Source: Microbacteriaceae bacterium
Lineage (GTDB): Bacteria; Actinomycetota; Actinomycetes; Actinomycetales; Microbacteriaceae
Assembly: GCA_014377425.1 (NCBI GenBank)
Contig: JACMPQ010000085.1
Coordinates: 1-64,000, forward strand
Length of the DNA stretch: 64,000 nucleotides
Direction of reading: 5' to 3'
Part shown: positions 3,442-19,872 of the stretch, piece by piece
Layout: every line of letters begins with the position of its first letter
How positions within the stretch are numbered: position 1 is the stretch's first letter
Notes under the pieces: generated by a model
Told to the model about the DNA's origin: nothing
The model's input: the letters and a program-made list of their open reading frames with translations, nothing else
The model's database searches: none
Position numbers and translations under genes: made by a program

Positions 3442-3494
3442 GCGGGGCTCCTTGCGGTTCGGGCGGGGTTGTTGCGGTCTGGATCTGTTTCGGG

Positions 3495-3526
3495 CGGGGT
3501 TTGTTGTGGGCGGGGTTTGTTGTGGG
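3495..3526. repeat. 16-bp direct tandem repeat, 2 copies
   Basis: The unit cggggtttgttgtggg occurs at 3495-3510 and again at 3511-3526, with a partial, diverged copy just upstream (about 3465-3480). It lies in the divergent gap (3442-3719) between the SDR gene and the MshA-like gene, where no coding sequence is seen. Confidence 0.8.
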
Positions 3527-3707
3527 ATGAATGTCGGCAGGTTCGGATTCGGGGGACACTGGTTGATCCCTACCGCAGCTGACCGGCACAGCCATGGTCA
3601 CACCGATACGGTTCGTACTCGCGCCCGCATCAGTGTGACCCGCATGGCCCGGTGTCACCGTGAGAGGTAGCTGAGTGTTAGCTGAAGGTGGTCCACCCGG
3701 GTCGCAA

Positions 3708-3713
3708 TAGGGT
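3708..3713 (+). promoter_or_regulatory. Predicted -10 box, leaderless MshA-like gene
   Basis: TAGGGT ends exactly six bases before the ATG at 3720, the spacing of a leaderless transcript. No convincing -35 box is visible. Confidence 0.45.
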
Positions 3714-3719
3714 TGCGGC

Positions 3720-4976
3720 ATGGAGAATTCGGGCAAACGGGTGGCCATGGTCTCGATGCATACCTCCCCCTCGGCACCCGCGGGAAGCCGGGATGCGGGC
3801 GGAATGAACGTCTTCATCCGTTCCGTAGCGACAGAGCTGGCCGGGCGCGGCGTGCAGGTCGACCTTCTGACCCGAGCTGAGGGCGAGCCCGCGGTTACGG
3901 AGCTTTCGGCGGGGGTGACCCTGCGAGAATTGCGGGCTGGTCCGGCCGGAATGCTTCCCAAAAATCAGCTTATCGATGCGACCGACGAATTTGGGGAGGC
4001 GGTGGCCGACCTCGCCTCCCGCCGCGATCTGGGGTACAGCGCCATCCATGCGCACTATTGGTTGAGCGGCATTGCGACGCTCCCGGTGGCGTTGGCCTGC
4101 GGCATCCCGTTTGTGCAGAGTTTCCACACCCTCGCGGTGATGAAAAACGCCTCCCGTGCCGCGGGCCAGCAGCCCGAAGATGAGTTGCGGCAAAAGAGTG
4201 AGATGTTTTTGGCCGGGCAGGCAAGCGCGGTAATAGCAGCCTCCGCGGCCGAGGCTACAGCCCTCGTCGACGAGGTGCGGGCCCCGGCATCTCGCGTTTG
4301 GGTGATTCCGCCGGGGGTCGACATTGACACCTTCACGCCGGAGCGCGCAGTTGCCGGCGAATCCGCGGTGCGGGCGCTTCTCGGCCTCGGCGCTAATCAG
4401 CCCATCCTCGTGGTCGCCGGACGAATCCAGCCGCTCAAGGCACAGGATCTCGCCATCCGCACCCTGGCGTCACAGACCGCTTCGACCACGAGCGCGATCG
4501 AAATGCCTGTTCTGGTGATCGCGGGGGAAGCAACCCCCGGCGACGACGACTATCTGTTTTCTCTGCACGCGCTCGTCGCGCAGCTCGGGCTGGGATCACG
4601 GGTGTTCTTTGTCGGAGCCCTCGACCGGGGGCCGCTTGCCGACCTGCTGGCCGCGGCGGCAATCGTCTTGCTACCCTCGCACTCGGAAACATTCGGCCTA
4701 GTGGCGATCGAAGCCGCCGCCAGCGGAACCCCGGTGATTGGATTTCGCACCTCCGGCCTGCTCGATGCGGTGGCGGAGGGCCGCAGCGGAGTGCTTGTGG
4801 ACTCGCGAGATCCCGAGGTGTGGGGGGCGGCGGTGGCGGCACTGTTGCGAGACACGGATGCCCGTTCCTCCCTCGCACGACTCGCCCGGCACCACGCGGA
4901 GGGGTACACCTGGCGGGCGACCGCCGCGACGCTTCTGAGCTTGTATGCCAGCGTCGGGGCGGACGTCCGGGACTGA
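3720..4976 (+). CDS. mshA: GT4 glycosyltransferase, MshA-like
   Basis: 418 residues, GT-B fold family 4. Motifs match D-inositol-3-phosphate glycosyltransferase (MshA), the first step of mycothiol synthesis: DAGGMNVFI near residue 25, HAHYWLSG near 103, HTLAVMKN near 137, PGVD near 199, GRIQPLKA near 236, and the E-x7-E nucleotide-sugar motif in SETFGLVAIEAAASGTPV near 325. MshA transfers GlcNAc from UDP-GlcNAc to inositol phosphate in the cytoplasm. Other GT4 enzymes share some of these motifs, so the assignment is probable rather than certain. The start follows a -10-like box by six bases (leaderless). The stop codon lies inside the first unit of a tandem repeat (4964-5100). Convergent with the reductase gene. 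Confidence 0.7.
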   Translation: MENSGKRVAMVSMHTSPSAPAGSRDAGGMNVFIRSVATELAGRGVQVDLLTRAEGEPAVTELSAGVTLRELRAGPAGMLPKNQLIDATDEFGEAVADLASRRDLGYSAIHAHYWLSGIATLPVALACGIPFVQSFHTLAVMKNASRAAGQQPEDELRQKSEMFLAGQASAVIAASAAEATALVDEVRAPASRVWVIPPGVDIDTFTPERAVAGESAVRALLGLGANQPILVVAGRIQPLKAQDLAIRTLASQTASTTSAIEMPVLVIAGEATPGDDDYLFSLHALVAQLGLGSRVFFVGALDRGPLADLLAAAAIVLLPSHSETFGLVAIEAAASGTPVIGFRTSGLLDAVAEGRSGVLVDSRDPEVWGAAVAALLRDTDARSSLARLARHHAEGYTWRATAATLLSLYASVGADVRD

Positions 4977-5100
4977 GCCGTCTGGGAGGTGAGCAGTGCG
5001 GGAGGTGAGCCGTGCGGGACTGAACAGTCTAAAAGTGACCGGTCTAGGAGTGAGCGGTCTAAGAATGAGCGGTCTAAGAATGAGCCGTCTCGGAGCGCGC
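4964..5100. repeat. 15/16-bp degenerate tandem repeat, about nine units
   Basis: Units of the form gGTCTaaGAaTGAGC are repeated head to tail; 5056-5070 and 5071-5085 are identical and the flanking units are progressively diverged. The first unit contains the TGA stop of the MshA-like gene. The array fills most of the 207-base gap between two convergent genes. No spacer structure is present, so it is not a CRISPR array. Confidence 0.8.
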
Positions 5101-5183
5101 TGTCCTGGTTGCAGGCAATCCTGGGAGCACGCAATCCTGGAAAAGAGCACGCCCTGCGGAGGCGAGCGCCGTTGCGCAGAGGG

Positions 5184-6608
5184 TCAGGCCGAGGCCCGAC
5201 CGTAGTTTTCCAGTAGCCGCAACCACACCTCGTTGATCGTTGGGTAGGCCGGCACCGCATGCCACAGTCGATTCAGCGGAACTTCGGCGACGACGGCGAT
5301 CGTGGCGGCGTGGAGCATTTCGGAGACATCCGGCCCGACGAAGGTCACCCCGAGCACAACCCGACGCTTCTCGTCGACCACCATGCGCGCCTGGCCGGTG
5401 TAGCCGTCGGCGTGCAGGCTGGAGCCGGCAACCGAACCCAGGTTGTAGTCGATAACGCGGATGTCGTAGCCGGCCTTTTCGGCGGCTGCCGCGGTGAGCC
5501 CCACCGACGCCACCTCCGGATCGGTGAACGTGACTTGGGGGACTGCCTCATGGTCAGCGGTTGCCACGTGGGCACCCCACGGTTTGACGAACACGTCGGT
5601 GGCGGTGGCCCGGGCGACAATGACATCCCCGGCGGCCCGCGCCTGATACTTGCCCTGGTGCGTCAACAGGGCGCGATGGTTAACGTCCCCCACGGCGTAC
5701 AGCCACTCGTGGCCGGTCACTCGCAGAGTGTCGTCGGTGCTGAGCCAGTCGCCGGCCGTCAGCCCTACGGTGTCGAGGCCGAGATCGTCGGTGCGCGGGG
5801 TGCGCCCGGTCGCAATCAGCAGCTCCTCTGAGATGATGGAACTGCCGTCTTCAAGTAGCACCGTCGTGAATCCGTCGCCCCGGGAGACGGAGACAGGCGA
5901 CACGGCCGTGTGAACGGTGGCACCGAGTTCGCGCAGGGCTGCCGTTACCAGTTCGCCGGCGAAAGGTTCCTGCCCGGCAAGGATCGGACCGCGGGATAGC
6001 AGGGTGACCTCGGTGCCAAAACTGGCATAGGCGGTAGCCATTTCGGCGCCGACCACGCCACCGCCAATGATGGTCAGGCTTTTCGGTGCGTGGGTGGCGC
6101 TGGTTGCTTCCCGGCTGGTCCAGGGGGCGGAGTCGGCGAGCCCGGTGATGGCGGGCAAGAGTGCTGCCGAACCGGTACTGATCACCACGGCATGATTGGC
6201 GATCAACTTGGTGATGGTGCCGTCGGCGGCGGTGACCGTGACCGTTTTTTCGCCGCTGAGACGCCCGTGACCGCGCACGAGGTCGATACCGGCACCGTCG
6301 AGCCATCCGGCCTGCCCATCATCTTGATAATGGCTGGTGAAGTTGTCGCGTCGAGCGAAGATAGCCGCGACATCCAAATCTCCGGTGATGGCCTCCTTCG
6401 CCCCACCCACCGCACGCGCGGCCCGCAACACTATTCCGCTGCGCAGGAGCGCCTTCGAGGGCATGCAGGCCCAATAGGAGCATTCCCCGCCGACCAGTTC
6501 GCTTTCTACAATGACGGCGCTGAGCCCGCCCTGCACAACGCGGTCGGCGACATTCTCGCCAACCGCGCCGGCTCCGATAACAATGACGTCGTAGTGGGTG
6601 GGGGACAT
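5184..6608 (-). CDS. FAD/NAD(P)-dependent pyridine nucleotide-disulfide oxidoreductase
   Basis: 474 residues with the class I flavoprotein reductase layout: FAD-binding VIGAGAVGENVAD at the N-terminus, second Rossmann motif IIGGGVVGAEMA near 180, FAD-binding AVGDVNHR near 312, and a dimerisation domain (residues about 350-474) starting near VTFTDPEVASVGLT. The redox-active disulfide region reads GGECSYWACMPSK, keeping the CxxxxC spacing but not the usual CxNxGC. Near the C-terminus, where classical disulfide reductases have HPTxxE, this protein has YPTINE. It therefore belongs to a divergent branch, and dihydrolipoamide, mycothione or mercuric reductase activity cannot be assumed. TTGGAG precedes the ATG. 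Confidence 0.8.
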   Translation of the reverse strand: MSPTHYDVIVIGAGAVGENVADRVVQGGLSAVIVESELVGGECSYWACMPSKALLRSGIVLRAARAVGGAKEAITGDLDVAAIFARRDNFTSHYQDDGQAGWLDGAGIDLVRGHGRLSGEKTVTVTAADGTITKLIANHAVVISTGSAALLPAITGLADSAPWTSREATSATHAPKSLTIIGGGVVGAEMATAYASFGTEVTLLSRGPILAGQEPFAGELVTAALRELGATVHTAVSPVSVSRGDGFTTVLLEDGSSIISEELLIATGRTPRTDDLGLDTVGLTAGDWLSTDDTLRVTGHEWLYAVGDVNHRALLTHQGKYQARAAGDVIVARATATDVFVKPWGAHVATADHEAVPQVTFTDPEVASVGLTAAAAEKAGYDIRVIDYNLGSVAGSSLHADGYTGQARMVVDEKRRVVLGVTFVGPDVSEMLHAATIAVVAEVPLNRLWHAVPAYPTINEVWLRLLENYGRASA

Positions 6609-6688
6609 TGTGGCTCCAATGGTGGTTGGGGTTGGGCTGAATTGGGCGGGGCGGGGGTTTTCCGGGAGTGTGCGGTGCTGAGTGACTG

Positions 6689-7489
6689 TCAGCGCCCGAT
6701 GAAGGTGGCGCTCTGACGGTTGAGAAAGGCGTTCATACCGATGGCGGCGTCTTCGCTGGCGATAAGCGCGACAAGCGTCGACTGCAGGGCTGCGGCTGCC
6801 GCGACATCCCCCTCGGCAACGGCGAGCTGCGCGCTGGCGAGAGTCGCCTGAACGGCGAGGGGCGCCTGTGCGGCAATCCGCTGCGCGATCGCCAAGCCTC
6901 GGGTGTACTGCGCCCCATCGGCAACAACCTCCTGCACGAGACCGCTACGGTGTGCCTCGGCGGCGTCGAAGGTGTCACCGGTGAGCATCCACCGCATCGC
7001 GTTACCCCACCCGATTGCCCGCGGTAACCGCAGGGTCGCCCCGCCGAACGGCAAAATACCGCGGCTCACCTCGATCTGACCGAAGCGCGTGGAGTTTGAC
7101 GCGACCGCGATCTCGCAGGCCAGGATGAGCTCAATGCCCAGGGTCAGGCAGCTCCCCTGGACGGCAATCACGACCGGCTTCCGTTGGCGCTCACCGGTGA
7201 GCCCCCACGGATCGATTCCACCCTCCGGCACGAGTTCGAGCCCGCGGGGGCCGATGCGGGGGGCGATGTCAGCAAGGTCGAGCCCCGCGGTGAAATGCTC
7301 GCCGTGCGCAAAAAGAAACCCCACCCGCAATCCGGGATCGCGGTGCAGGGTGCCGTAGGCGAGCGCGAGTTCCGTGATCAGTTGGAGGTCGGCGGCGTTG
7401 CGTTTCTCGGGCCGGTTGAGGCCGATCAGCAGCACGTGGCCTTCACGTTCTACGGTGACGCGAGGCGGGGCATCCGAGGCGGGGGGCAT
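6689..7489 (-). CDS. Enoyl-CoA hydratase/isomerase (crotonase) family protein
   Basis: 266 residues. HFTAGLDL (near residue 70) and GSCLTLGIELILACEIAVA (near 112) supply the crotonase oxyanion-hole backbone. Glutamates corresponding to the two catalytic acids of enoyl-CoA hydratase appear to be kept (GIE, and FGQIEVSRGILPFGG). Substrate is probably an acyl-CoA thioester, chain length unknown; hydratase versus isomerase cannot be decided. The ATG at 7489 follows TAGGCT by exactly six bases, suggesting a leaderless message. No beta-oxidation partners are adjacent. Confidence 0.85.
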   Translation of the reverse strand: MPPASDAPPRVTVEREGHVLLIGLNRPEKRNAADLQLITELALAYGTLHRDPGLRVGFLFAHGEHFTAGLDLADIAPRIGPRGLELVPEGGIDPWGLTGERQRKPVVIAVQGSCLTLGIELILACEIAVASNSTRFGQIEVSRGILPFGGATLRLPRAIGWGNAMRWMLTGDTFDAAEAHRSGLVQEVVADGAQYTRGLAIAQRIAAQAPLAVQATLASAQLAVAEGDVAAAAALQSTLVALIASEDAAIGMNAFLNRQSATFIGR

Positions 7490-7495
7490 GAGCGC

Positions 7496-7501
7496 AGCCT
7501 A
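7496..7501 (-). promoter_or_regulatory. Predicted -10 box, leaderless crotonase gene
   Basis: TAGGCT on the minus strand, ending six bases before the ATG at 7489. No clear -35 box. Confidence 0.45.
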
Positions 7502-7556
7502 GAACCTCGGTGGGGGAGGCGCCTGAGCAAAAAACGAACCGGCTTCCCGCCCCGTG

Positions 7557-8378
7557 TTACAGCTTCTTGCTTACCGCTGCGAGGATGCGCAGGATGCTGG
7601 TGAGGTCGTCGGCGGCGGCATCCGGTGTGGGCGGAGCGAAGCCGGTAATACCGACACCGGCCACCGGAAGCACGGCCCGGGCGGCGGCGATGAGGTGCAG
7701 CAGGGCAACGAGAGCGAGCCCAAACGGTTCGGCTGAGCCCACGCAGGAAAACTCGGCCGGGTCGAGAACATCGAGGTCAATGTGCAGATACACCGAACTC
7801 GCGCCGCTGGTTACGATTGCGGCGGTGAGGGTTTCCGGGGTGAGGATTTTGGGCGACAGGTGCGTGATGCCGGATGCCGAAATATACTCGCTCTCAGACT
7901 CGTCTAGTGCGCGCACTCCCGCCAAAATTACCCGATCGGCGGTGAGAGCCCGTGGCGGACGAATGCTCTCGGGGGCATCCCCGAGCAGGGTACGAAGCAC
8001 CATTCCGCCGAAGGAACCCGAGGGCGATGACGCTGGCGTGTTGAGGTCTCCGTGCGCGTCGAACCAGATCAGCACGAGGTCGTGGTTCGCGGCCGCATGT
8101 TGCACCGCGGCCAGCTCGACGCCGCAGTCGCCGCCGATCGTGACCGTGGTCTCCTCGGCGTCGTGAAGCGCGGCGAGCATCTCGTCACGCACGAATTGGA
8201 TCGAGCTCAATCGCAGAATTCCGCTGTCGAGTGCGGAACCGGCGCCGCTCGGTGGCGTGATCCTCAACGCGGAGCTCGGCAACTCAGCGCCAATGGCTGC
8301 AGCGCCGTCGATGAGACGCATGGCTCGGGATGATCCGGAGCCCTGCCACTGGGGAACAACGAGGTAGGTCACGGGCAC
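7557..8378 (-). CDS. Arginase/ureohydrolase family protein with Cys at a metal ligand
   Basis: 273 residues. The ureohydrolase metal motifs are present: GGDC near residue 98, WFDAHGDLN near 120, and HIDLDVLDP near 198. In arginases and agmatinases the first motif is GGDH, whose His binds one Mn; here it is Cys, as in a subset of actinobacterial family members. The aspartates and His of the other two motifs are intact. Substrate (arginine, agmatine, formiminoglutamate or another guanidino compound) cannot be assigned. GTG start. The 127-base gap to the next gene holds a tandem repeat. Confidence 0.8.
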   Translation of the reverse strand: MPVTYLVVPQWQGSGSSRAMRLIDGAAAIGAELPSSALRITPPSGAGSALDSGILRLSSIQFVRDEMLAALHDAEETTVTIGGDCGVELAAVQHAAANHDLVLIWFDAHGDLNTPASSPSGSFGGMVLRTLLGDAPESIRPPRALTADRVILAGVRALDESESEYISASGITHLSPKILTPETLTAAIVTSGASSVYLHIDLDVLDPAEFSCVGSAEPFGLALVALLHLIAAARAVLPVAGVGITGFAPPTPDAAADDLTSILRILAAVSKKL

Positions 8379-8414
8379 TCACTAAGTTTGGCACGCGCTG
8401 TGCCTGCCGCGGCT

Positions 8415-8476
8415 GGAAGCGCTGGGTCTGCTGGAAGTGCTGGGTCTGCGGGAAGCGCTGGGTCTGCTGGAAGCAC
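8415..8476. repeat. 18-bp tandem repeat, 3.4 copies
   Basis: Units at 8415-8432, 8433-8450 and 8451-8468 (ggaagcgctgggtctgct, two substitutions in the second copy) plus a partial fourth. They occupy the intergenic space between the NADP oxidoreductase-like gene and the arginase-like gene. Confidence 0.85.
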
Positions 8477-8505
8477 AACCCGACTGAAACCCGGGGCCCG
8501 CGATA

Positions 8506-9165
8506 TTATTCGGATGCCGGGCTGTTTTTATCCCGGGTTGCGCGGGCCACATTTGACCGCAGTTCTTCCTCGTTTTGTGGAACACCGTAGGCGGGCTGAT
8601 CACGCTCGATTCGCCAGCTCTCGCTCAGCGGCCCGACATCCACGGTGTCAAAGCCCAACTCGTCGTAAAATTCCGCGACCAGATTCTTGGCATCGGGATT
8701 GTCACCGGCGAGTCCGAGGGCCCGGCGATTCGGGGTATTCGCGGGCCGACCATCACGGGTAATGTCGGCCGCCCCCACGTGGTTGAAGCCCTTAATCACG
8801 GTGCTGGTCGGCAGGTGGGACTGCAGCAGTTCGGTGACGGTGGCGAGCTCGTTGTCGAGTTCGGAGATGTGCCCGTCACGTTCGGGATAGTAGTTATTGG
8901 TGTCGATGACGAGCTTGCCGGCGAGTGGTTCGACGGGTACCTGGGCGATGTTCTTCAGTGGAATGGTGACCACGGCAAAATCGCCGAGAGCGGCTGCCTC
9001 TGCGGCGCTGGCCGCTCGGGCCTTCGAGCCGAGGTCGGCGATGAGGTCGGTGAGGGTCTCTGGGCCTCGGGAGTTGCTGATTACGACGTCGTAGCCGACG
9101 GCGATTGCGGCACGGGCGAGTTGGCTGCCTATGTTTCCGGCGCCGATGATTGCGATGGTTGTCAT
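8506..9165 (-). CDS. NADPH-dependent F420 reductase-like NADP-binding protein
   Basis: 219 residues. The N-terminal Rossmann motif IIGAGNIGSQLARAA and the following SNSRGPETL (a phosphate-binding loop typical of NADP specificity) match the F420-dependent NADP oxidoreductase-like family. Later blocks include VIDTNNYYPERDG and KGFNHVGA. Members transfer hydride between NADP and F420 or act on unknown substrates; true F420 use is not shown by sequence. The ATG lies five bases after the stop of glycerate kinase, so the two genes form an operon. Confidence 0.8.
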   Translation of the reverse strand: MTTIAIIGAGNIGSQLARAAIAVGYDVVISNSRGPETLTDLIADLGSKARAASAAEAAALGDFAVVTIPLKNIAQVPVEPLAGKLVIDTNNYYPERDGHISELDNELATVTELLQSHLPTSTVIKGFNHVGAADITRDGRPANTPNRRALGLAGDNPDAKNLVAEFYDELGFDTVDVGPLSESWRIERDQPAYGVPQNEEELRSNVARATRDKNSPASE

Positions 9166-9170
9166 GGCAT

Positions 9171-10313
9171 TCAGACTAGTTTCTGTTGCTGCGCGAGCAT
9201 CCGAGCCGCCATTTTTAGGTATGGCCGGGGATTGGCCAGGGCCTCCTCGACGGAACCTGCGAGCTGGGAGAGGGAGAGCGCTGTGGCCGGGGAAGCACGT
9301 TTGAGTTGCCCGGTATTGAAAGCGATTTGCCCAGCAATCAGCGCGACCGGCACGGCGTGTCTCTGCGCCAGTGTCAGGACATTTCCGACGACCTTGCCGT
9401 GCAGAGAACTCTCGTCGAAGCGGCCCTCGCCGGTGATAATCAGCTGCGCCCGGGTCAGAGCGCGGGGGAGCCCGCTGAGTTGAGCAAGAAATTCGGCACC
9501 CGGGATGATGCCGGCATCCCAGAGCGCAGCAAAACCCCAGGCTGTTCCGCCCGCCGCGCCCGCACCCGGTGTTTCGGGGTCTATCGGAGTTTCGAGTGTC
9601 TGGGAAAAGCGGCGTAGCCCGGAATCGAGCAGCAGTACCTCGGCCGAACTCGCACCCTTTTGCGGTGCGAAAGTGAGGGCTGCGCCACTTTGGCCATAAA
9701 GCACAGACACGACATCGGTGAGGAGAAAGACGCCTCCGGGCGGAGGCGGGCGCATTTTCGAGCGGTCAGCCCGGGAAAGCTGGTTAAGCGCCCCACCGCC
9801 ATCAGCCAGTGCTCGGCCGGCGGAGTCGAAAAGTCGCAGCCCGAGCGCACACAGCGCACCAGCGCCAGCGTCGGTCGAGGCCGATCCGCCAAGGCCGATC
9901 AGTAGCTTCTGGGCGCCGGCATCGAGGGCGTGCCCGATGACTTCGCCGAGGCCGCGGGTGGATGCGCCGCAGGCATCCGGCAACCGCATGAGCGGGAGAC
10001 CACTGCACTGAGCGAGTTCGACCACTGCGGTGCCATCGGGCAGCAGAAGCCATTGGCCGCGTGTCGGTCGACCGTCGGGGCCGGTCACCTCGCCGGCGTC
10101 GCGACGACGTGCGCCGGCAATAGAGAGCTCGATCGCGTCGAGGGTACCCTCACCGCCGTCGGCCTGCGGAACCAGCACCAGCTCGTCGCCTGGCAAAATC
10201 TCGCGCCAGCCGGCGGCGATTTCCGCAGCGACGGCTGACGCCGAGAGGGAGGATTTGAAGGAATCCGGGGCGATCACCACCGTGCGGCGCGGGGCCAAGG
10301 TAGGGGGGGTCAT
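9171..10313 (-). CDS. Glycerate kinase (GlxK/GarK family)
   Basis: 380 residues, the family's usual length. Conserved blocks are APDSFKSSLSA near residue 15, ADGGEGTLDA near 50, LIGLGGSASTDAGAGALCALG near 137 and GEGRFDESSLHGKV near 290. The enzyme phosphorylates D-glycerate with ATP to 2- or 3-phosphoglycerate, feeding glyoxylate or glycerate breakdown products into glycolysis. It is read together with the NADP-binding oxidoreductase downstream (five-base gap), which could supply or remove a related hydroxyacid; that link is inference. Confidence 0.9.
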   Translation of the reverse strand: MTPPTLAPRRTVVIAPDSFKSSLSASAVAAEIAAGWREILPGDELVLVPQADGGEGTLDAIELSIAGARRRDAGEVTGPDGRPTRGQWLLLPDGTAVVELAQCSGLPLMRLPDACGASTRGLGEVIGHALDAGAQKLLIGLGGSASTDAGAGALCALGLRLFDSAGRALADGGGALNQLSRADRSKMRPPPPGGVFLLTDVVSVLYGQSGAALTFAPQKGASSAEVLLLDSGLRRFSQTLETPIDPETPGAGAAGGTAWGFAALWDAGIIPGAEFLAQLSGLPRALTRAQLIITGEGRFDESSLHGKVVGNVLTLAQRHAVPVALIAGQIAFNTGQLKRASPATALSLSQLAGSVEEALANPRPYLKMAARMLAQQQKLV

Positions 10314-10349
10314 TTCGGAAGCACAGCGTTCAATCCCCCAGCACAGCGG

Positions 10350-10760
10350 TCATTCCAGCAGCAACAGGATCAGCTGAATCAGGACCGCCAAGATACCGAT
10401 TGCCATCAGCATGATTCCGGTAACGCGAAACACCCGGCCGTCGGTAGAGGGATGATCGAGGCGACCGTTTTCGGAATTGCGCGGGTCGAAGAAAACGGTG
10501 ACCTCATCGCCGATGGTGTGATCAGCGGCATCCGCCAGGGGAATCGGCGCCGACTGCAGTTCTCGGTCGAGATCGAGCCAACGAATCCAGGGATGTGCTG
10601 TCCCCGCAGGTGAGGCGATGACCACCCCGCAGGTCTCCTCAAAACGCTTGGCCCAGGCACGGCGGGCCAGCCCGATCAGGAGCAGCACACTCCCGGGCAC
10701 CAGCGCCAACCAGGTGAGCAGCTCCAACGCGAGCGAGATGGCGTCCGACGGAGTGAGCAC
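10350..10760 (-). CDS. DUF3592-like small membrane protein
   Basis: 136 residues from GTG at 10760. One or two N-terminal hydrophobic stretches (about residues 8-32), a central soluble part with DEVTVFFDPRNSENGRLD, and a C-terminal membrane helix (about 112-134). This two-helix sandwich with a VxVxYDPxNP-like block resembles DUF3592 proteins, whose function is unknown. A longer reading from TTG at 10847 exists, but a TACTAT box exactly six bases before 10760 argues for the shorter, leaderless form. Confidence 0.6.
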   Translation of the reverse strand: MLTPSDAISLALELLTWLALVPGSVLLLIGLARRAWAKRFEETCGVVIASPAGTAHPWIRWLDLDRELQSAPIPLADAADHTIGDEVTVFFDPRNSENGRLDHPSTDGRVFRVTGIMLMAIGILAVLIQLILLLLE

Positions 10761-10766
10761 CCTTCG

Positions 10767-10772
10767 ATAGTA
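10767..10772 (-). promoter_or_regulatory. Predicted -10 box, leaderless DUF3592-like gene
   Basis: TACTAT on the minus strand, six bases before the GTG at 10760. Confidence 0.45.
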
Positions 10773-11008
10773 GGAGAGCTTCAGCGGCCACGCACACAGA
10801 CCGGCGTCATCCGTGCGGTGTTGCACAGCGTTTTCGGGCGATGACAACCCTGGTCGAATTCCTCGGTCGTGCAGTGCGGTCAGGCCAGGTCGAAGGCTAG
10901 CGTCGCTGCGAAAAAAGTTTTTTGAGGAACTGCGTAATGAGATTGAGGATTTGGACTCTTATAACTGAGGCCACTTCTGGACTTCACGCTACCTAAGGAA
11001 AATCACGC

Positions 11009-11683
11009 ATGGTCGATAGCCCAGCCCCCGCCCTTCCCCGCCACCAACCGGTGCGTTCCCGCGCAACCTCAACCCTCGACGCGCTGCTGAAAAGCGCCGC
11101 GCTGATCGTGCACTCGGTCGGGGCGGAACGTTTGACTTCGGAACTGGTGGGCATCGGATCCGGGTACTCCATCGGCACCGTATATCGCTACTTTCTAAAT
11201 CGACTGCACATTCTTGACGCGCTGAGCCAGCAGAACATGGACCGTTTTGTGAAGGATTGCCTGCCGAGCATCACCCCCCGACGCCATTCCACTTGGCTGG
11301 ATGCCTTCACAAGCGTGCTCGACTACTTTGAGCTTGAATTCGCGACCCGGCCGGGGTTTCGCTCCATCCGTTTCGGCGATCACCTCGACAGCCGCATTGG
11401 CGCTCGGAATCAAACGAACATTGCCCGAGCGGCGTCGATTTTTGCCTCCACCCTGGGAGATAACTACCCCGCGATTGTGGGAACCGCAGTGTTGGAGCGA
11501 ATCGAAGTAGCCCTACTGATCCACGACTCGCTGCTTGCCCGAGCGTTTGCGCATTCTGATCTGGGTGACACCCGGCTGATCGCCGATTCTCGCCAGGTGG
11601 CTATCAGCTACCTCACGGCACTAGACCCGACGTGGCTGGCGCCCGGTTCGACGGCACCGAAGGAGCCCTTAGCTAGCTCATAG
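11009..11683 (+). CDS. TetR family transcriptional regulator
   Basis: 224 residues. The N-terminal helix-turn-helix (about residues 20-65) ends in SIGTVYRYFLNRLHILDAL, the TetR recognition-helix hallmark; the preceding SELVGIGSGY is somewhat unusual where most members have a GVS-type turn. The C-terminal ligand and dimer domain shows no family-specific motif. ATG preceded by AAGGAAA. Target and ligand are unknown; candidates are the divergent upstream gene or the downstream secreted hydrolase region. Confidence 0.85.
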   Translation: MVDSPAPALPRHQPVRSRATSTLDALLKSAALIVHSVGAERLTSELVGIGSGYSIGTVYRYFLNRLHILDALSQQNMDRFVKDCLPSITPRRHSTWLDAFTSVLDYFELEFATRPGFRSIRFGDHLDSRIGARNQTNIARAASIFASTLGDNYPAIVGTAVLERIEVALLIHDSLLARAFAHSDLGDTRLIADSRQVAISYLTALDPTWLAPGSTAPKEPLASS

Positions 11684-11738
11684 CTTCTTCTTAGTCAGCA
11701 CCAAATCACCGCAACCTCAATGGAATTTCGATCGAGCT

Positions 11739-12251
11739 CGCACCATCCAGCTCGTCGCGGTGCTTGTTGTAACCGTGTCTGCGGCGGGCGTGGCAGGGCT
11801 GTTCGCCGTCGATTCCGCGATTGCGGCCACGGAACACGCCTCCCGCTCGCTGATGGCCACGACCCGGGCGTCGGTGGCGGTTCCGTCACCTTCGGGGTCG
11901 CTCCGTCTGCGCCGGTGGCAGCACCAGATACCTCGGCGGGGGAGGCCGCGGGTGGCAGCTACTGTGATGTTTTGCAACCGCTCTCGGGTCACCCCGAACT
12001 TATGCAGGGCGACGACGTACACCCGACACCCGTCGCCGCGAAAACACCGTGAGTGAAACAAGCTGCGTCGGGAATCGACGGGCAGAACCAAATTCGCCGC
12101 CGATTTAGCCACCTCAACTCCGCTGCGGGTTTCTGCCGCGGTGTCCCACACCCCGCAACTGATTGCGGCATCGGCCGCGGTGGGCGATAAAATTCGCCTA
12201 GCGGATGCAGAGCTTGCGTCGATGACTGCGAGAGTGCCGCCGCCGCCGTAA
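11739..12251 (+). pseudogene. Frameshifted gene for a small membrane-anchored secreted protein
   Basis: The reading frame is broken but coding character persists. In one frame (11739 to about 11900) there is a signal-anchor-like stretch (IQLVAVLVVTVSAAGVAGLF) followed by an Ala/Thr/Ser-rich part. The signal then moves to another frame (about 11870-12049) with GGSYCDVLQPLSGHPELM, and returns to the first frame (about 12075-12251) with STGRTKFAADLATSTP and an Ala-rich helix ending at a TAA at 12249-12251. No single frame is open throughout. At least two compensating indels are inferred. It could also be explained by sequencing error. Fills most of the 634-base gap between TetR and the hydrolase. 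Confidence 0.55.
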
Positions 12252-12317
12252 CGCCTGTTCCGCAGCCACCCCGCCGGACCGCGGGAATGGGTCCGAACTC
12301 CTACTGCAAGGTCATCA

Positions 12318-13862
12318 GTGCCCAATTTGCTTTTCACAACCCCAAGGCTTTCAACGCTTACACGGTTTCTCGCCCTGGCACTGGGGATTTCCCTTGCTCT
12401 CACCGGATGTTCCGCTCCTGTGCTGCCCGCCATCGATGTGAAGTATGCGAAATATTACGAACAAGTCGTTGTCTGGACCGCCTGCGGAACCGGGTTGCGT
12501 TGCACGACGGCGATGGCACCCCTCGATTGGAATCAGCCGCAGGGCGTCACCATCACACTGGCGCTGGTGAAGCGTCAAGCACTCGGGACCAGAAGGGGAT
12601 CGATTCTGGTCAACCCCGGTGGCCCGGGCGAATCCGGGGTGGCAATGATTACCGACTCCGTCGATGCCGTCGACGCGACCCTCAGAAAGAACTTCGACAT
12701 CGTTGGATTCGATCCGCGCGGAGTGGGTAAATCCACGCCGGTAAGTTGCTTCACCGCGGCAGAGAAGGACCGCTACCTCTACGGGATCGTTCCGGGCGAC
12801 ATCGGTTCGGACCAGTGGATCGACGGGAAAACCATTGTGGAGCAGTCCTATGCCGCTGCCTGCGCAAAAAATACCGGCCCATTACTGGCTCACGTCGACA
12901 CGCAAAGCGCCGCCCGAGATCTCGATGTGCTTCGAGCAATACTCGGTGAGACCAGACTGAATTATTTGGGCTATTCCTACGGCACGTTTTTGGGAACGGT
13001 GTACGCGGGGCTGTTCCCGCAGCGGGTCGGAAGAATGGTTTTCGACGGAATCGACAACCCGTGGGCGTCGGCCGCGGCCGACGGAAAGGGCGAGGCTGCG
13101 CCATCCGATTCCTTCGAATCTGCACTGCACGCTTTTCTAGCCAGCTGTGTGTCGGGCTCCACGGAGGCGGTCGCAGACCAGAGCTGCGCCTACCGCGGCT
13201 CGGCGGACTCCGCGATGACCGCGGTCGCAGCCCTCTTAAGCTCAGTGTCCAAGACACCGCTGAAGAATGTCGACGACAGAATGCTGGGGGGCTCAACCCT
13301 GTACACCGCGATCACCAATCATCTCTACAGCCTCGGAGCGTGGCCCGACCTAAACATCATGTTGCGGGACGTGCAGGCGGGCGATCCACACACCGCCTTT
13401 GAGTCGGCGGACAGCGCGAACGGTCGCGGCGGTGATGGCGGCTACGAAGGCAACAGCAGCGATGCGTTTCGTGCGATCAACTGTCTAGACGGCACCGCTG
13501 GTGGTGACCCATTGGCGATGAAGGAGCAGGCGGCAGAACTCGTGAAGGGGGCGCCGGTCTTTGGAATTTATGAGGCCTACGGCGCACTGGATTGTTCATC
13601 GTGGAGCGCAGCAGCGAAGCCGATGATGGATCCGGTGACCGCCGAGGGGGCGGCCCCAATTTTGCTCTTGGGCACCACCAACGATCCGGCCACTCCCTAC
13701 GAGGATGCCCAAGCGCTTGCCGAGCAATTGAGCGACGGCCACCTCGTGACCTACACGGGGGAGGGGCACACCGCCTACAACCTCGGCAACTCCTGCGTTG
13801 ATAATGCCGTCGATCGCTATTTTGTGTCCGGAACCGTTCCCGACTCCGATCCCAAATGTTGA
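12318..13862 (+). CDS. Secreted alpha/beta-hydrolase lipoprotein, TAP-like peptidase
   Basis: 514 residues. N-terminal signal peptide with lipobox LALTGC (Cys near residue 31), so probably lipid-anchored outside the cell. The S33/tripeptidyl aminopeptidase-type hydrolase fold follows: oxyanion region NPGGPGESG near 97, nucleophile elbow GYSYGT near 221, acid Asp in TTNDPATPY near 457, and His in GEGHTAY near 484, followed by the CVDNAVDRYF segment of the TAP C-terminal domain. The likely role is trimming N-terminal peptides for uptake. GTG start with AAGG upstream. A perfect hairpin follows the stop. Confidence 0.85.
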   Translation: MPNLLFTTPRLSTLTRFLALALGISLALTGCSAPVLPAIDVKYAKYYEQVVVWTACGTGLRCTTAMAPLDWNQPQGVTITLALVKRQALGTRRGSILVNPGGPGESGVAMITDSVDAVDATLRKNFDIVGFDPRGVGKSTPVSCFTAAEKDRYLYGIVPGDIGSDQWIDGKTIVEQSYAAACAKNTGPLLAHVDTQSAARDLDVLRAILGETRLNYLGYSYGTFLGTVYAGLFPQRVGRMVFDGIDNPWASAAADGKGEAAPSDSFESALHAFLASCVSGSTEAVADQSCAYRGSADSAMTAVAALLSSVSKTPLKNVDDRMLGGSTLYTAITNHLYSLGAWPDLNIMLRDVQAGDPHTAFESADSANGRGGDGGYEGNSSDAFRAINCLDGTAGGDPLAMKEQAAELVKGAPVFGIYEAYGALDCSSWSAAAKPMMDPVTAEGAAPILLLGTTNDPATPYEDAQALAEQLSDGHLVTYTGEGHTAYNLGNSCVDNAVDRYFVSGTVPDSDPKC

Positions 13863-13872
13863 CCTGAAACGC

Positions 13873-13904
13873 GATAAGCCAACCCGCGCACGGGTTGGCT
13901 TATC
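13873..13904. terminator. Perfect 14-bp inverted repeat, likely bidirectional terminator
   Basis: gataagccaacccg, a four-base loop (cgca), then the exact complement, ten bases after the hydrolase stop. No T-tract follows on either side, so termination may rely on the hairpin alone. It separates the plus-strand hydrolase from the minus-strand permease remnant. Confidence 0.65.
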
Positions 13905-13921
13905 GGTAGGCGGGGTGACGG

Positions 13922-14046
13922 TTAGGCCTGCTTGCGGCTGGCCCGCCGGTCGGTCATCACCGCGGTACCGATGACGAACCCGATGACGACGGGCTGCAGG
14001 ATGCGCGACACGTTGAGCAGCGACATCCCGTTGTTGAGAACCGGGC
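13922..14046 (-). pseudogene. C-terminal remnant of sugar ABC transporter permease
   Basis: On the minus strand, directly after the TAG of the alcohol dehydrogenase and in the same frame, about 40 codons read VLNNGMSLLNVSRILQPVV, then IGFVIGTAVMTDRR and a basic tail ending KQA-stop. This matches the last membrane helix and tail of RbsC/XylH-type sugar permeases (the pattern LxNGMsLLnVs ... GxVixxAVmxD). There is no start or upstream portion, so the rest was lost. The dehydrogenase gene now abuts it, suggesting a deletion or replacement event. The identification rests on a short segment. Confidence 0.6.
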
Positions 14047-14047
14047 G

Positions 14048-15106
14048 CTACTTGAGTGTTGCGACGTCGATCACGAAGCGGTAGCGAACGTCGGAGCTAA
14101 GCACACGCTCGTAGGCGGCGTTGATGCCATCGGCCGAAATGACTTCAACCTCAGGGGCGATGTTGTGCTCGGCGCAGAAATCGAGCATCTCCTGCGTTTC
14201 GCGGATGCCGCCGATGGTGGATCCGGCAAAGGATCGGCGATTGGTGAACAGGGTGAACACGTGCAGGGGGAGCGCCTCGGGCGGTGCCCCAACGTTCACC
14301 ATGGTGCCGTCGAGGGCCAGCATCGACAGGTAGGAGTCGAGTTCGAGCTTGGCGCTCACGGTATTGATGATCAGGTCAAAAGTATTTGCGAGGGTCGTGA
14401 AGGTTTCACTGTCGCTTGTGGCGTAGTAGTGATCCGCTCCGAAGCGCAGGCCGTCATCGCGCTTGCTCAGCGACTGTGAAAGCACGGTAACCTCCGCGCC
14501 CATCGCGTGAGCGATTTTGACCGCCATGTGGCCGAGCCCGCCCATGCCCACCACCGCGACCTTCTTTCCCGGGCCGGCGTTCCAGTGGGCCAGAGGGGAG
14601 TAGGTCGTGATGCCGGCGCAGAGAAGCGGTGCGGCCGCCTCGTAGGGGATGTTCTCGGGCACTTTCAGCACGAAGTGCTCGACCACAACGATGTGCGTTG
14701 AGTACCCGCCCTGGGTGATCGTGCCGTCTTGATCGGTAGCGGCATAGGTGCCGGTATTGCCCTTCAGGCAGTACTGCTCAACCCCGGCAAGGCAGTTGGC
14801 GCATGCTCCGCAGGAGTTCACCATGCAACCAACCCCCACCCGGTCACCGACGCGGTGCAACGTCACCTCGGTGCCCACCTCGGTGACAACTCCGACAATT
14901 TCGTGGCCCACCGTGAGCGGGTACGGCATCGGGCCCCATTCGCCGCGCACGGTGTGGATGTCGGAATGGCAGATTCCGGAGTAGGCGATTTCGATCAGCA
15001 CATCGTGGGCACCGACGGCGCGCCGTTCAATGGTGGTGCGAACGAGCGGTTCGGTGGCGGAGGTCGCGGCGTAGGCGTTGACGGTGGTCGTGTTCACGGT
15101 TGACAA
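14048..15106 (-). CDS. Zinc-dependent NAD(P) alcohol dehydrogenase (CAD/YahK-like)
   Basis: 352 residues from TTG at 15106, chosen because GGAG lies at the right distance and the length then matches the family; a longer open frame upstream lacks conservation. GICHSDIH and VGHEIVGVV near residue 40 hold catalytic zinc ligands, [15 protein letters not shown] near 95 holds the four structural-zinc cysteines, and [15 protein letters not shown] near 177 is the cofactor fold. Members of this cinnamyl alcohol dehydrogenase-like group reduce many aldehydes, usually with NADPH. A truncated sugar permease follows the stop immediately. Confidence 0.88.
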
Positions 15107-15306
15107 GAAAACTCCAGTTTCGTTTTGTCGGTGTGGTTTGCAGCGTAATGCGGCTTCCGGCGGCACGACTCTGGGCTCGCGATCGGTTCGGTTCCAGTCA
15201 AGCTCAGTTTTTCGTCGACGCTGACCATTAGGGCGCACACCATCGCAGCTTTGACGAGTCCCGGCTGCGGTGCATCGGTGCCTCAGGCAGTCGAATCGGT
15301 GACAGC

Positions 15307-15732
15307 ATGATTCAGATGACCGACCTGATGGCGCGCAATTCACTGTTCGACCGGGGAATCGCCCTCGGCCTCACCTGGACGCGGGGTGAGACTCCCGGCG
15401 GTCGACCTACCATTTACTTGCCACTGCGCGACCCACTGGCGTTGCGGGCCTCGCTTTACCCCTTTTCCCACAACTGGATGCTCAGTTGGACCTCGCCCAT
15501 GCACGGCACCGAGACGATCAAAGTCGACAAACTCGGGCGAGATTTGCGAGTGGTGCTTCAGGCCTTGGGAGCCGCAATTGTGCTCGTAATCGATCGATCG
15601 GTCGACTCGGAGCCGACATCCGCTCTGCAAATCATCGGTTTTCTCGGGGCACTGGGAGTAGCTCTCGAGGATGACGCGATATTGGCCACAGCGGTGGCAG
15701 GGAGACAGCGCGCGCAAAACCGCGTGGGGTGA
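15307..15732 (+). CDS. Conserved-type hypothetical protein
   Basis: 141 residues, not recognised. The central part (about residues 30-75) is rich in aromatic residues ([19 protein letters not shown]) followed by a predicted strand-helix ([26 protein letters not shown]). The C-terminal third is hydrophobic but has no clear membrane helix. No signal peptide. ATG at 15307 is weakly supported by GGTGA; an ATG at 15316 is an alternative. The stop lies three bases from the 3' end of the convergent tRNA-Arg. Confidence 0.6.
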
Positions 15733-15735
15733 ATG

Positions 15736-15810
15736 CGTGGTGCCCCCAGGCAGATTCGAACTGCCGCCACCGCCTCCGGAGGGCGGTGCTCTATCCCCTG
15801 AGCTATGGGG
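15736..15810 (-). tRNA. tRNA-Arg (anticodon CCG)
   Basis: Reads GCCCCCATAGCTCAGGGGAT from 15810 downward. Acceptor stem gccccca/tgggggc, D arm with AGCTCAG, anticodon stem ccgcc/ggcgg around loop CTCCGGA (anticodon CCG, decoding CGG), T arm with GTTCGAATC, and an encoded CCA at the 3' end (15738-15736). No repeat of the 3' end is seen nearby, so there is no sign of integration at this tRNA. Confidence 0.95.
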
Positions 15811-15882
15811 GCCCAAGTGCCTTCCTACGCTATCAGGGTGTCGAGGTGGTGACGTGCGCGGCGCTCTGTCACCCGCGCTCAA

Positions 15883-15888
15883 TAGGGT
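15883..15888 (+). promoter_or_regulatory. Predicted -10 box, leaderless PdxH-like gene
   Basis: TAGGGT, ending six bases before the ATG at 15895. The same hexamer and spacing occur before the MshA-like gene. Confidence 0.45.
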
Positions 15889-15894
15889 GTGGGC

Positions 15895-16554
15895 ATGAGC
15901 GATAACCCAGCGGCCCCCGGCATCCGCGCCCCCCGAACTGCGCAGCCCGCCTTTCCAATTTTTGATCCGGATGCGGCCCCGGCGAACCCGGTAACCCTCG
16001 TTCAGGAGTGGTTGGCATTCGCGGTCGCTGGCGGGGTCTCGCAACCGAAGGTGATGACGCTCGCCACCGCATCCGCCGCGGGAATTCCGTCGGCGCGCAG
16101 CCTGCTGCTGCAGCACATCACCGATGAGGGGTTTTGGTTCGCAAGCCTCGCCGACACGCCGAAGGGGCGGGAGCTTGCCGAGAACCCGTGCGCCGCCCTC
16201 ACCCTGTACTGGCGGGAGCATGGTCGGCAGGTGCGGGTGAGCGGTGCGGTGACGGTGGGCCCGCGAGAGACCGCCGAAGGGGACTTTCGCGCCCGGCACC
16301 CGAATGCTCGGGCGCGGGCAATCGCCGGGGAGCAGAGCGAAGTATTGCCGCCTATTGATGAGATGTCCCGCCTTATTGCGGGGGCTGCGTCGCAGCTCGA
16401 CGGGGAGCCAGAATTTGTTCCGCAGGATTGGACCGCCTACGTGGTGGCACCCGACATGGTCGAATTTTGGCAGGCTGCCGCAGGTCACGAAGAACTGCGA
16501 TTGCGCTATCGGCGCGAGGGTGCCGGGTGGGCGAAAGAACGGCTCTGGCCCTAG
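15895..16554 (+). CDS. Pyridoxamine 5'-phosphate oxidase family protein (PdxH-like)
   Basis: 219 residues. Blocks match PdxH: VMTLATASAAGIPSARSLLL and GFWFASLADTPKGRELAENP (FMN binding), ALTLYWREHGRQVRVSG, and the C-terminal dimerisation block WTAYVVAPDMVEFWQ. PdxH uses FMN and oxygen to make pyridoxal 5'-phosphate. The usual C-terminal RLHDR-type substrate motif is replaced by LRLRYRRE, so the substrate may differ. ATG at 15895 is preferred to GTG at 15889 because of the six-base spacing to a -10 box. Confidence 0.75.
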   Translation: MSDNPAAPGIRAPRTAQPAFPIFDPDAAPANPVTLVQEWLAFAVAGGVSQPKVMTLATASAAGIPSARSLLLQHITDEGFWFASLADTPKGRELAENPCAALTLYWREHGRQVRVSGAVTVGPRETAEGDFRARHPNARARAIAGEQSEVLPPIDEMSRLIAGAASQLDGEPEFVPQDWTAYVVAPDMVEFWQAAAGHEELRLRYRREGAGWAKERLWP

Positions 16555-16614
16555 GGATCGAGTTGCAGGCATTCGCGGCAAAACGGCGGTGTCGCGACGT
16601 GCCAAGATTTCCTA

Positions 16615-17409
16615 ATGCAACGCAACGTCACCTCCCATCTTGAGCTCGAGATCCGCGGCCGCACCAAAATTGTCTTCAGCGTCGCGGTGGCGCAAAACAA
16701 TCTTCTCGGCGCTGAGAGCCTGAGCTTTGTTCTCGATGGCGTGGAGGTTGGGTCGAAAGAAATTATCGACCGGCACGGAACGCGGCTGCACCAGGTGATC
16801 GCCACCCCTGGAGCCATGGTGGTCGACTACGCCGCCGAGATTGTGGGCACGAGTCTTCCGATTTATAGCGAAGACATCGAGCAGATCAGCTACCTGCGCC
16901 AGAGTCGCTACTGCGAATCCGACGTGCTTACCCCCACTGCGCGCGCCGAATTTTCCGGTCTCGTGGGTCACGAATTGTTGGCCGCGGTGAGCTCCTGGGT
17001 CGGCACCAAATTGCGCTACCTGCGCGGCTCGAGCCGATCTACCGATGGGGCGGTGCACACCCTGCTGCTGCGAGCCGGGGTTTGCCGCGACTTCGCCCAC
17101 GTGGCCATCGCGCTGCTTCGCGCCCTCGGCATCCCGGCCCGAATGGTGTCGGTTTATGCTCCGGGGCTCACCCCGATGGACTTTCACGCAGTTTGCGAGG
17201 CCTATGTTGATGGCAGCTGGCATCTAATCGACGCGACCGGGCTCGCACCGCGGCAAAGTCTCGTGCGCATTGCCACCGGCCGCGACGCCGCGGATGTCGC
17301 ATTCCTCACCAACCACTGGGCCGACCTGATCTTACGCAAGCTCACGGTGACCGCGATGGTCGATGAGTTGCCCGTTGACGACACCCGGCAACTGGTGGCG
17401 TTGGGCTAG
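16615..17409 (+). CDS. Transglutaminase-like family protein
   Basis: 264 residues. The N-terminal beta-rich part (residues 1-95) precedes a transglutaminase core with the catalytic Cys in GVCRDFAHVA (near 157), His in MDFHAVCEAYV (near 190) and Asp in WHLIDATG (near 207). No signal peptide or membrane helix. Bacterial members are mostly thiol proteases or amidases of unknown substrate. The start is preceded by CAAGAT six bases upstream. Convergent with the lipoprotein gene (nine-base gap). Confidence 0.85.
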   Translation: MQRNVTSHLELEIRGRTKIVFSVAVAQNNLLGAESLSFVLDGVEVGSKEIIDRHGTRLHQVIATPGAMVVDYAAEIVGTSLPIYSEDIEQISYLRQSRYCESDVLTPTARAEFSGLVGHELLAAVSSWVGTKLRYLRGSSRSTDGAVHTLLLRAGVCRDFAHVAIALLRALGIPARMVSVYAPGLTPMDFHAVCEAYVDGSWHLIDATGLAPRQSLVRIATGRDAADVAFLTNHWADLILRKLTVTAMVDELPVDDTRQLVALG

Positions 17410-17418
17410 AGCCAGAAG

Positions 17419-18105
17419 TTAGGCCAGCGCGCCCATCACGACGCTCATCAGTGGCCGAGCATCGGCGGGGGTTGCAAACGCCGTCGAAGAAAGTGCGATC
17501 CAATAGGGCCCGACGAATCGTTGGAGAACGCCAACGCCGTGACTTACGGCGAAGTGTTCACCCGATGCCGTGGCCGTACCAGCTGTGGCGTTTAGCGCGG
17601 TGAGCGAGGTCGCTGATGGACGGGCCACAGCCAGGTCAATGGTGATTTTGCTGCTCTGCTGGAGCCAGCCGCAGGCGACTCCGCTCATGGCCAGAGCATT
17701 CGCGCCAGCAGTCTTCGCGGTCGGAACGTAGCCTGCAATCACCCCGAAGTTCGGGTCGTAGTTGTACATGCTCTGCAGCGACACGAGGTCGAGACATTTT
17801 TTTGCTACGGCCGTACCCGAGAGCGGTGCCGCCGTTGCCGTTGCCGTTGCCGTCGGTTTGCTGGAGTTACCGGGAGCGGGCGAAGTCGCGCCGGGGGTAT
17901 TTGACGCGCCGGGCGAGGCTCCTGCCGACGCGGTGGCGGTTGAGGGTTTCGTCGAAACCGAAACAGACGCCGAGGGCGAGGCCAAACCTCCGGGATCCGC
18001 GCAGCCGCTGAGGGCCACAACAAGCACAGCCACAAATGCCGAAGAGATCCCTATGGTCAGCCAAGGAGTGCGGGTGGGGCGAGGCATCCGGATGCTACGT
18101 GACAA
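17419..18105 (-). CDS. Putative secreted lipoprotein with Ser/Thr/Ala linker
   Basis: 228 residues. Signal peptide with lipobox VALSGC (Cys near residue 35), then a 60-residue linker rich in Ser, Thr, Ala and Pro, then a globular domain (about 100-228) containing two cysteines (KKCLDL and VACGWLQQ) that could pair. The pattern resembles actinobacterial substrate-sensing lipoproteins without known function. TTG at 18105 has GAGAGG upstream; ATG at 18087 is an alternative start. Divergent from argS. Confidence 0.7.
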
Positions 18106-18187
18106 TTGTTCGACCTCTCAGACGGTGTTTTCCCATCCTCCTGTACGGCACCGCGGGCAGGGCCCAAGGCGCGCCACGGTCGGCGGA

Positions 18188-18193
18188 TAGAAT
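18188..18193 (+). promoter_or_regulatory. Predicted -10 box for argS
   Basis: TAGAAT, eight bases before the GTG of argS, predicting a transcript with almost no leader. No clear -35 box. Confidence 0.4.
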
Positions 18194-18201
18194 TAGCCCC
18201 C

Positions 18202-19872
18202 GTGACTCCCGCTGAACTCTCCGCATTCCTCCTGGCCGCTGTCGGCCGCGTGATCGCCCGCTTAGAGGCGCAAGCTGAACCGCTGGCCGAACTTACCGTC
18301 GTCGACCTCGCTCTTGACCGCCCGAAAAATCGCGACCACGGCGATTGGGCGTCGAACATCGCACTGAAGCTGGCGAAGAAGTTGGGTACCAATCCGCGGG
18401 AGCTCGCTGCCGTATTCGCCGAAGAGTTCAGCCTGATTGAGGGTGTGGCCTCGGTGGATGTTGCCGGCCCCGGTTTTATCAACCTCACACTGGATGCCGC
18501 TGCCGCCGGGGCCCTCGCGAAGACCATCGTGGAGCTCGGCGCCGAGTACGGCCGCGGCGACCTCTACGCCGGCGTCACCATTAACCTCGAGTTCGTCTCG
18601 GCGAACCCCACCGGACCGATCCACATCGGAGGGGTGCGCTGGGCCGCCGTCGGCGACAGCCTTGCGCGCATCTTCACCGCCGAGGGCGGGATCGTGACCC
18701 GGGAGTACTACTTCAACGATCACGGCGCGCAAATCGACAAATTCGCTCGCAGCCTGCTGGCGAGCTTTCACGGCGAGCCCGCACCGGAAGACGGCTACGG
18801 CGGCCAGTACATCTCCGACATTGCCGACCGCGTAGTGGACGAGCACGCCGGTGATCTCGCCCTGCTCAACCGGGATGACGCCCAGGAACTGTTTCGCGCC
18901 CGTGGCGTCGACCTGATGTTCACCGACATCAAGGCGAGCCTGCACGACTTTGGGGTCGACTTCGACGTCTACTTTCACGAGAATTCGCTGCACGAATCCA
19001 ACGCGGTTGCGCACGCGATCGCACGCCTTCGCGAACTCGGCCACATGTACGAGGCCGAGGGCGCCACCTGGCTGCGCACCACCGACTTTGGAGACGACCG
19101 CGACCGCGTGGTGATCAAGAGCGACGGTGAGGCTGCCTACATCGCCGCCGACCTTGCCTACTATCTGAACAAGCGCGAACGCGGCTTCGAACGCAACCTG
19201 ATCATGCTCGGGGCCGACCACCACGGCTACGTCGCGAGGCTAATGGCCATGGTTTCGGCCTTTGGCGATACCCCGCGCTACCACCTCGAAATTCTGATCG
19301 GCCAAATGGTGAACCTGCTGCGCGACGGCCAGCCGATGCGCATGAGCAAGCGCGCCGGCACCGTGGTGACCATGGAGGATCTGGTCGACGCGGTAGGAGT
19401 GGATGCCGCCCGCTACGCCCTCGTGCGCAGTAGCAGTGACTCGCAACTTGACGTCGACCTCGACCAGCTCGGTAAGCGCACCAACGACAACCCGGTGTTT
19501 TACGTGCAGTACGCTCACGCCCGCACCCGGTCGGTGGCGATCAACGCCGCGGCATCCGGAGTTGATCGCAGCGTGTTTGACGCCTCCCTTCTCACCCATG
19601 ACAGCGAGAGTGTGCTGCTCGGCGTGTTGGCAGAACTGCCACGGGTGGTGCGTCAGGCCGCAGAGCTGCGCGAACCGCACCGCATCGCCCGCTACTGCGA
19701 AGAACTTGCCGGGGCCTATCACCGCTGGTACGACAATTGTCGAGTCACGCCCCTCGGTGACGAAGAGGTCAGCGACCTGCACCGCACGCGGCTGTGGCTC
19801 AACGACGCCACCGGAACCGTGCTGCGCAACGGGCTCGGCCTCCTCGGCGTGAGTGCACCAGACCGGATGTAG
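18202..19872 (+). CDS. argS: Arginyl-tRNA synthetase
   Basis: 556 residues. Class I synthetase: the HIGH-type motif is in [10 protein letters not shown] (near residue 134) and the KMSKS-type loop is MRMSKRAGT (near 380). The N-terminal tRNA-recognition domain and the C-terminal anticodon-binding helical domain, ending in [11 protein letters not shown], are intact. Charges tRNA-Arg with arginine. GTG at 18202 is taken as start because it fits family length; the frame stays open upstream to 18106 with no family similarity. lmeA follows nine bases after the stop. Confidence 0.97.

Follow-up and report, generated by a model that had tools for sequence, protein, structure and literature searches.

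The window analyzed here is a 64,000-nucleotide stretch from a Microbacteriaceae bacterium whose minus strand carries an intact gene for a Zn-dependent alcohol dehydrogenase at positions 14048 to 15103. The assignment relies on matches to Pfam ADH_N and ADH_zinc_N and on homologues, and the start codon is uncertain. The nearest NCBIfam model is the aldehyde reductase Ahr (NF047908), but the score of 311.4 bits is below the cut-off of 470, and thus the enzyme is related to Ahr without being filed as Ahr. The TAG stop codon of the gene (14050-14048) is followed in the same frame by 41 sense codons (14047-13925) and a TAA stop codon (13924-13922). An earlier note on this DNA had placed the tail of a sugar permease at 13922-14046, in the dehydrogenase frame after the TAG. 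This placement is correct to within one base, and the frame is open through all 41 codons to the TAA. However, the note described the tail as fused to the dehydrogenase, which is too strong given the stop codon between them.

The first six bases after the TAG (14042-14047, minus strand) form a junction that leads to the first permease-like codon. The next 39 codons (13925-14041, minus strand) correspond to the end of an RbsC-type (BPD_transp_2) sugar ABC permease, and the TAA (13922-13924, minus strand) occupies the codon position at which the intact permease also stops in G380, the genome of the family sample with the closest match. DNA similarity to the G380 permease begins five bases past the dehydrogenase stop, at the last base of the junction (14042), and continues ungapped for 119 bases at 84% identity, ending with the first base of the TAA, whereas no G380 permease DNA aligns upstream of 14042 at this locus. 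The match has an E-value of 2e-32 in a 92-kb set, and the reverse search, with the G380 locus as query and 83 kb of the contig carrying the window as target, gave 2e-30. The tail includes a hydrophobic stretch of 19 residues with a mean hydropathy of 1.73, and its GC content is 67%, versus 63% for the window.

Downstream of the tail, a strong inverted repeat (13872-13905) lies between convergent genes and might serve as a shared terminator. RNA folding of the minus strand predicts a hairpin of -30.5 kcal/mol (z -5.7) with a stem of about 15 pairs and no T run. A consensus scan for sigma-70 promoters and T-run terminators found none, and the hairpin is not called a terminator. The convergent neighbor (12318-13862, plus strand) was named by eye as an alpha/beta hydrolase, with only weak NCBIfam matches, and has relatives at 46-49% identity in all five other members of the genus. 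On the other side of the dehydrogenase, a 141-codon ORF (15307-15732, plus strand) begins upstream of that gene on the opposite strand. It matches no Pfam family (E<=0.01) or NCBIfam family (E<=0.001), and probably is not a gene.

Matches to the tail peptide at E<=1 occur in 78 of the 99 genomes searched including its own (77 of 98 others), and 16 of 398 genomes in an even sample of the family, again counting its own (G000), match at E<=1e-4. In this family sample, the best other match is to G380 (87% over 39 residues, E 4.7e-15), followed by G184 (74%), G362 (71%), and G385 (67%). Of 30 loci translated, 10 were on the other strand and are left out; at each of the 20 readable ones, the match is located inside an open frame that ends 35 to 63 residues after the start of the match. 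The identification of the piece as the end of an RbsC/XylH-like permease, made in the earlier note, fits these data.

The tail corresponds to only 39 of the 346 residues of the intact G380 permease, at the C-terminal end. It shares with RbsC/AraH/XylH-type permeases (PF02653) the last ~39 residues and, relative to G380, the position of the stop codon, but everything before this is missing and one membrane helix is left. The intact G380 copy covers positions 1-269 of the PF02653 (BPD_transp_2) profile and so has the complete membrane domain of 269 positions expected of a functional permease, whereas a Pfam search with the fragment of ~39 residues alone returned 0 families. A search of solved structures with the 41 residues gave only three chance-level matches (E 0.73-2.3). 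The tail shares with gene remnants (pseudogenes) a much longer intact homologue and the loss of the start and most of the domain.

The arrangement of dehydrogenase and tail was not found in a second genome in the genus, in the 398-genome family sample, or in a 396-genome sample of the order. When the order sample was searched with the dehydrogenase end joined to the tail, 13 of 396 genomes including G000 matched at E<=1e-4. In G599 and G007, and to the extent of a few residues in G206, G671, and G481, the match extends beyond the dehydrogenase stop; what follows there is other sequence and no permease tail. A distant DNA search of a plasmid collection returned four weak records, none covering both parts: two from Rhizobium match part of the tail only, and two from Arthrobacter match the dehydrogenase end only. 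Separately, G380 carries a partial second permease end just after the stop codon of its intact permease (L065:1645-1680; 36 bases, 83% identical to the tail in the window, E 3e-5). It might be a further remnant at this gene end, produced by recombination inside permease ends.

The tail shows little decay. Between it and the G380 permease, 16 of 39 codons differ, 11 synonymously and 5 non-synonymously, and 12 of the 19 base differences are at third positions. Because the differences are mostly synonymous, a break would be recent. We also aligned eight tails, namely that of this locus and those of its seven nearest matches among 18 listed intact copies (two of the seven, G544 and G505, are identical), and considered those of columns 1-32 in which at least six of the other seven agree. 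The window departs from the consensus at 2 such columns versus 1-4 in the seven intact copies. This fits a young remnant and also retained use; the tail may have evolved as part of a working permease until recently, or may remain under constraint.

A contig scan identified at least 590 relatives of the dehydrogenase, of which the best 80 loci were taken with flanks of up to 4 kb on each side. These 80 homologues are 63-82% identical and come from actinomycetes, bacilli, and Corallococcus. The aligned part extends as far as query residue 350 or 351 of 351, beyond which 48 of the 80 have no residues, 19 have one, and 13 have 2-10. In none of these best 80 of at least 590 loci did the dehydrogenase region and its flanks contain the tail or a full permease at E<=0.05. 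The earlier note held that its reading would fail if homologues normally carried the same tail by readthrough. With the permease piece at 0 of 80 loci this objection falls away, and a native C-terminal extension of the family is likewise not seen among them. Within the genus, two of the five other members have a DNA match to the dehydrogenase. Their enzymes are 80% and 66% identical, reside at other genomic places, and end without the tail.

The junction is located in a variable interval between two blocks of genes that are conserved in the genus. The left block (2602-10847) includes SDR-, glycosyltransferase-, and lipoamide-dehydrogenase-like and further genes, named by eye. In G005, a complete genome from the genus, positions 2602-9165 have the same order and the relative of 10350-10847 lies 15.7 kb further on, whereas 9171-10313 has no match in the G005 stretch. 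Parts of the left block are also present in G002, G003, and G004. The right block (15889-19872), with PdxH-, transglutaminase-, and lipoprotein-like genes and ArgS, also named by eye, is collinear in G005 and G004. Parts of it occur in G002 and G001, and it was not seen in G003.

In G005 the right block begins 76.7 kb past the left block, compared with 5.0 kb in the window, and the orientations agree. The two intervals (window 10847-15889 and G005:C1:1663484-1740191) therefore differ about 15-fold in length within one genus, either because the window lineage lost DNA or because G005 gained it. None of the window genes between the blocks (those at 11009 and 12318, the dehydrogenase, and the ORF at 15307) has a match in the G005 interval at E<=1e-8, and no permease relative was detected there even at E<=1. 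Of the five ORFs from the G005 interval that were tested (L190), one resembles a transposase (HTH_38, with rve just under the cut-off) and the other four gave no Pfam family. In relatives, an intact sugar ABC operon at the corresponding place, which the earlier note had named as confirmation of loss, was not found, and the equivalent G005 interval holds none. Thus, an operon may have been lost from this site, or its end alone may have moved here.

The closest intact relatives of the permease suggest what kind of cluster the tail came from. In G380, the gene order is binding protein, two-domain ATPase, permease, E1 alpha, E1 beta, GlpD-like, GlpK-like, aldolase, and acyltransferase-like, where all names derive from Pfam or NCBIfam matches except the last, which was assigned by eye. 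The GlpK-like protein scores above an NCBIfam subfamily cut-off, whereas the matches for the GlpD-like protein, E1 alpha, and the regulator are below their equivalog cut-offs. Among nine intact permease loci, four (G380, G184, G466, and G505) have the E1 alpha/beta, GlpD-like, and GlpK-like genes nearby. Three others (G385, G053, and G060) have the transporter without enzyme genes in the 12-19 kb seen, the G544 contig has only AraM-like, second kinase, and HAD-like genes before its end, and the G362 contig is too short to judge. Linkage between the transporter and the enzymes is thus common but not universal. A glycerol-like polyol would be our guess for the substrate. A literature search aimed at this cluster returned only unrelated work.

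The window's own assembly is a draft of 100 contigs at 97% completeness, in which the tail lies on the 92-kb contig C47. In a search of the assembly with the permease, 8 matches were found, and those other than the tail are 30-39% identical; a binding-protein query found 9 at 23-34%. None of these is an orthologue. Elsewhere on C47, a search for transporter pieces gave only ABC-ATPase-like sequence (25-28%) and chance-level matches (E>=0.015). The earlier statement that the window contains no other part of a transporter therefore holds for this transporter, but not literally, since ABC-ATPase-like sequence of another kind, 25-28% identical, is present at about 45.9-46.5 kb. An intact transporter could be present in an assembly gap, given a draft of this number of contigs and completeness.

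Enzyme genes of the same type are nonetheless present on another contig of this genome, C31. This 17-kb contig carries a full-length E1 alpha gene whose product is 90% identical to that of G380, followed by E1 beta (89%), GlpD-like (68%), and GlpK-like (70%) genes, and it breaks off inside the aldolase gene, with the first 23 residues at the contig end. No part of the transporter was found on C31 at E<=1e-3, and we note that the segment L215:1-6882 represents a catabolic cluster without an ABC transporter of the tail's kind. The position upstream of E1 alpha that the permease occupies in G380 is here taken by a gene judged by eye to be lipoate-ligase-like (L215 5908-6882), about 125 bases of which are similar to a gene at the distal end of the G380 cluster. 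The four intact clusters include a permease orthologous to the tail and have enzyme genes related to those of the window's genome, but in the latter the enzymes are on another contig and, by comparison with G380, the lipoate-ligase-like gene occupies the permease place. DNA identity to G380 is 84% for the tail, 80% for E1 alpha, 81% for E1 beta, and 71-72% for GlpD and the kinase, values that are compatible with a common origin of the tail and the enzyme genes but are no proof of it.

Several other explanations for the tail were considered. It is unlikely that a misjoin in the draft put the permease end behind the dehydrogenase and left the rest of the permease in a gap. The number of contigs and the fact that the junction is shown by one genome only are consistent with such an artefact, but the junction is found 14 kb into a contig of 92 kb and is flanked by genus blocks of kept order, and the GC content of the tail is close to that of the window. 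Furthermore, no close copy of the tail exists elsewhere in the assembly (the other matches are 39% and 31% identical), so no repeat is available to cause a misjoin. We regard as very improbable a horizontally moved cassette in which the dehydrogenase arrived already carrying the transporter piece. The flanks of the best 80 of at least 590 dehydrogenase loci hold no such piece, and the genome has enzyme genes of the same cluster type, which argue against transfer despite the spread of the dehydrogenase from actinomycetes to bacilli and Corallococcus and its different placement in the two genus members where it is found.

The tail might instead be in use, although we consider this barely credible. 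A 34-codon ORF that starts at ATG 14026 could yield a one-helix membrane peptide by re-initiation after the dehydrogenase, or readthrough of the TAG could provide a membrane anchor, such that a transporter end would have been recruited to a new gene. The shared open frame, the hydrophobic stretch, and the low level of decay are in keeping with this possibility. However, a common frame arises by chance one time in three, no obvious ribosome-binding site was seen by eye before the ATG, and the arrangement does not recur in the genus, family, and order samples.

The 41 codons are thus very probably a non-functional 3' remnant of a lost permease, joined to the dehydrogenase by deletion or gene replacement. 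This origin of the junction, proposed in the earlier note, is supported as the best reading, and the family, orientation, and frame given there also fit the data. The lineage would once have had a sugar or polyol ABC transporter in a cluster of the type that is intact in G380, G184, G466, and G505. A deletion or gene replacement in the variable interval between the two conserved blocks would then have brought a broken permease to within a few bases of the stop codon of an intact dehydrogenase, so that the permease end, its stop, and the hairpin are what is left. By inference, the remnant and the C31 genes derive from a single ancestral cluster, whose enzyme genes would have survived on C31 while the transporter disappeared from the assembly. 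The tail itself presumably has no function.

Gene remnants of this kind are common. One study reports 238 and 305 intergenic gene remnants, called by Pseudofinder, in two genomes (PMC9336565). The tail resembles the intergenic remnants and truncated pseudogenes described there in that a short segment of a known gene lies between genes and has full-length homologues elsewhere, and differs in that enzyme genes of the parent type are still identifiable in the same genome. What is added here is the parent cluster and the survival of its enzyme-type genes. On the best reading, the tail is a young permease remnant formed by ordinary gene decay, with a parent cluster that is unusually traceable. Further evidence would be needed before the 41 codons are annotated as a gene or as an extension of the dehydrogenase. 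For the organism, the finding looks like a step in pathway decay, in which a catabolic cluster loses its dedicated transporter while the enzymes stay well conserved. With E1 alpha 90% identical to that of another genus, the question is how these enzymes are fed now.
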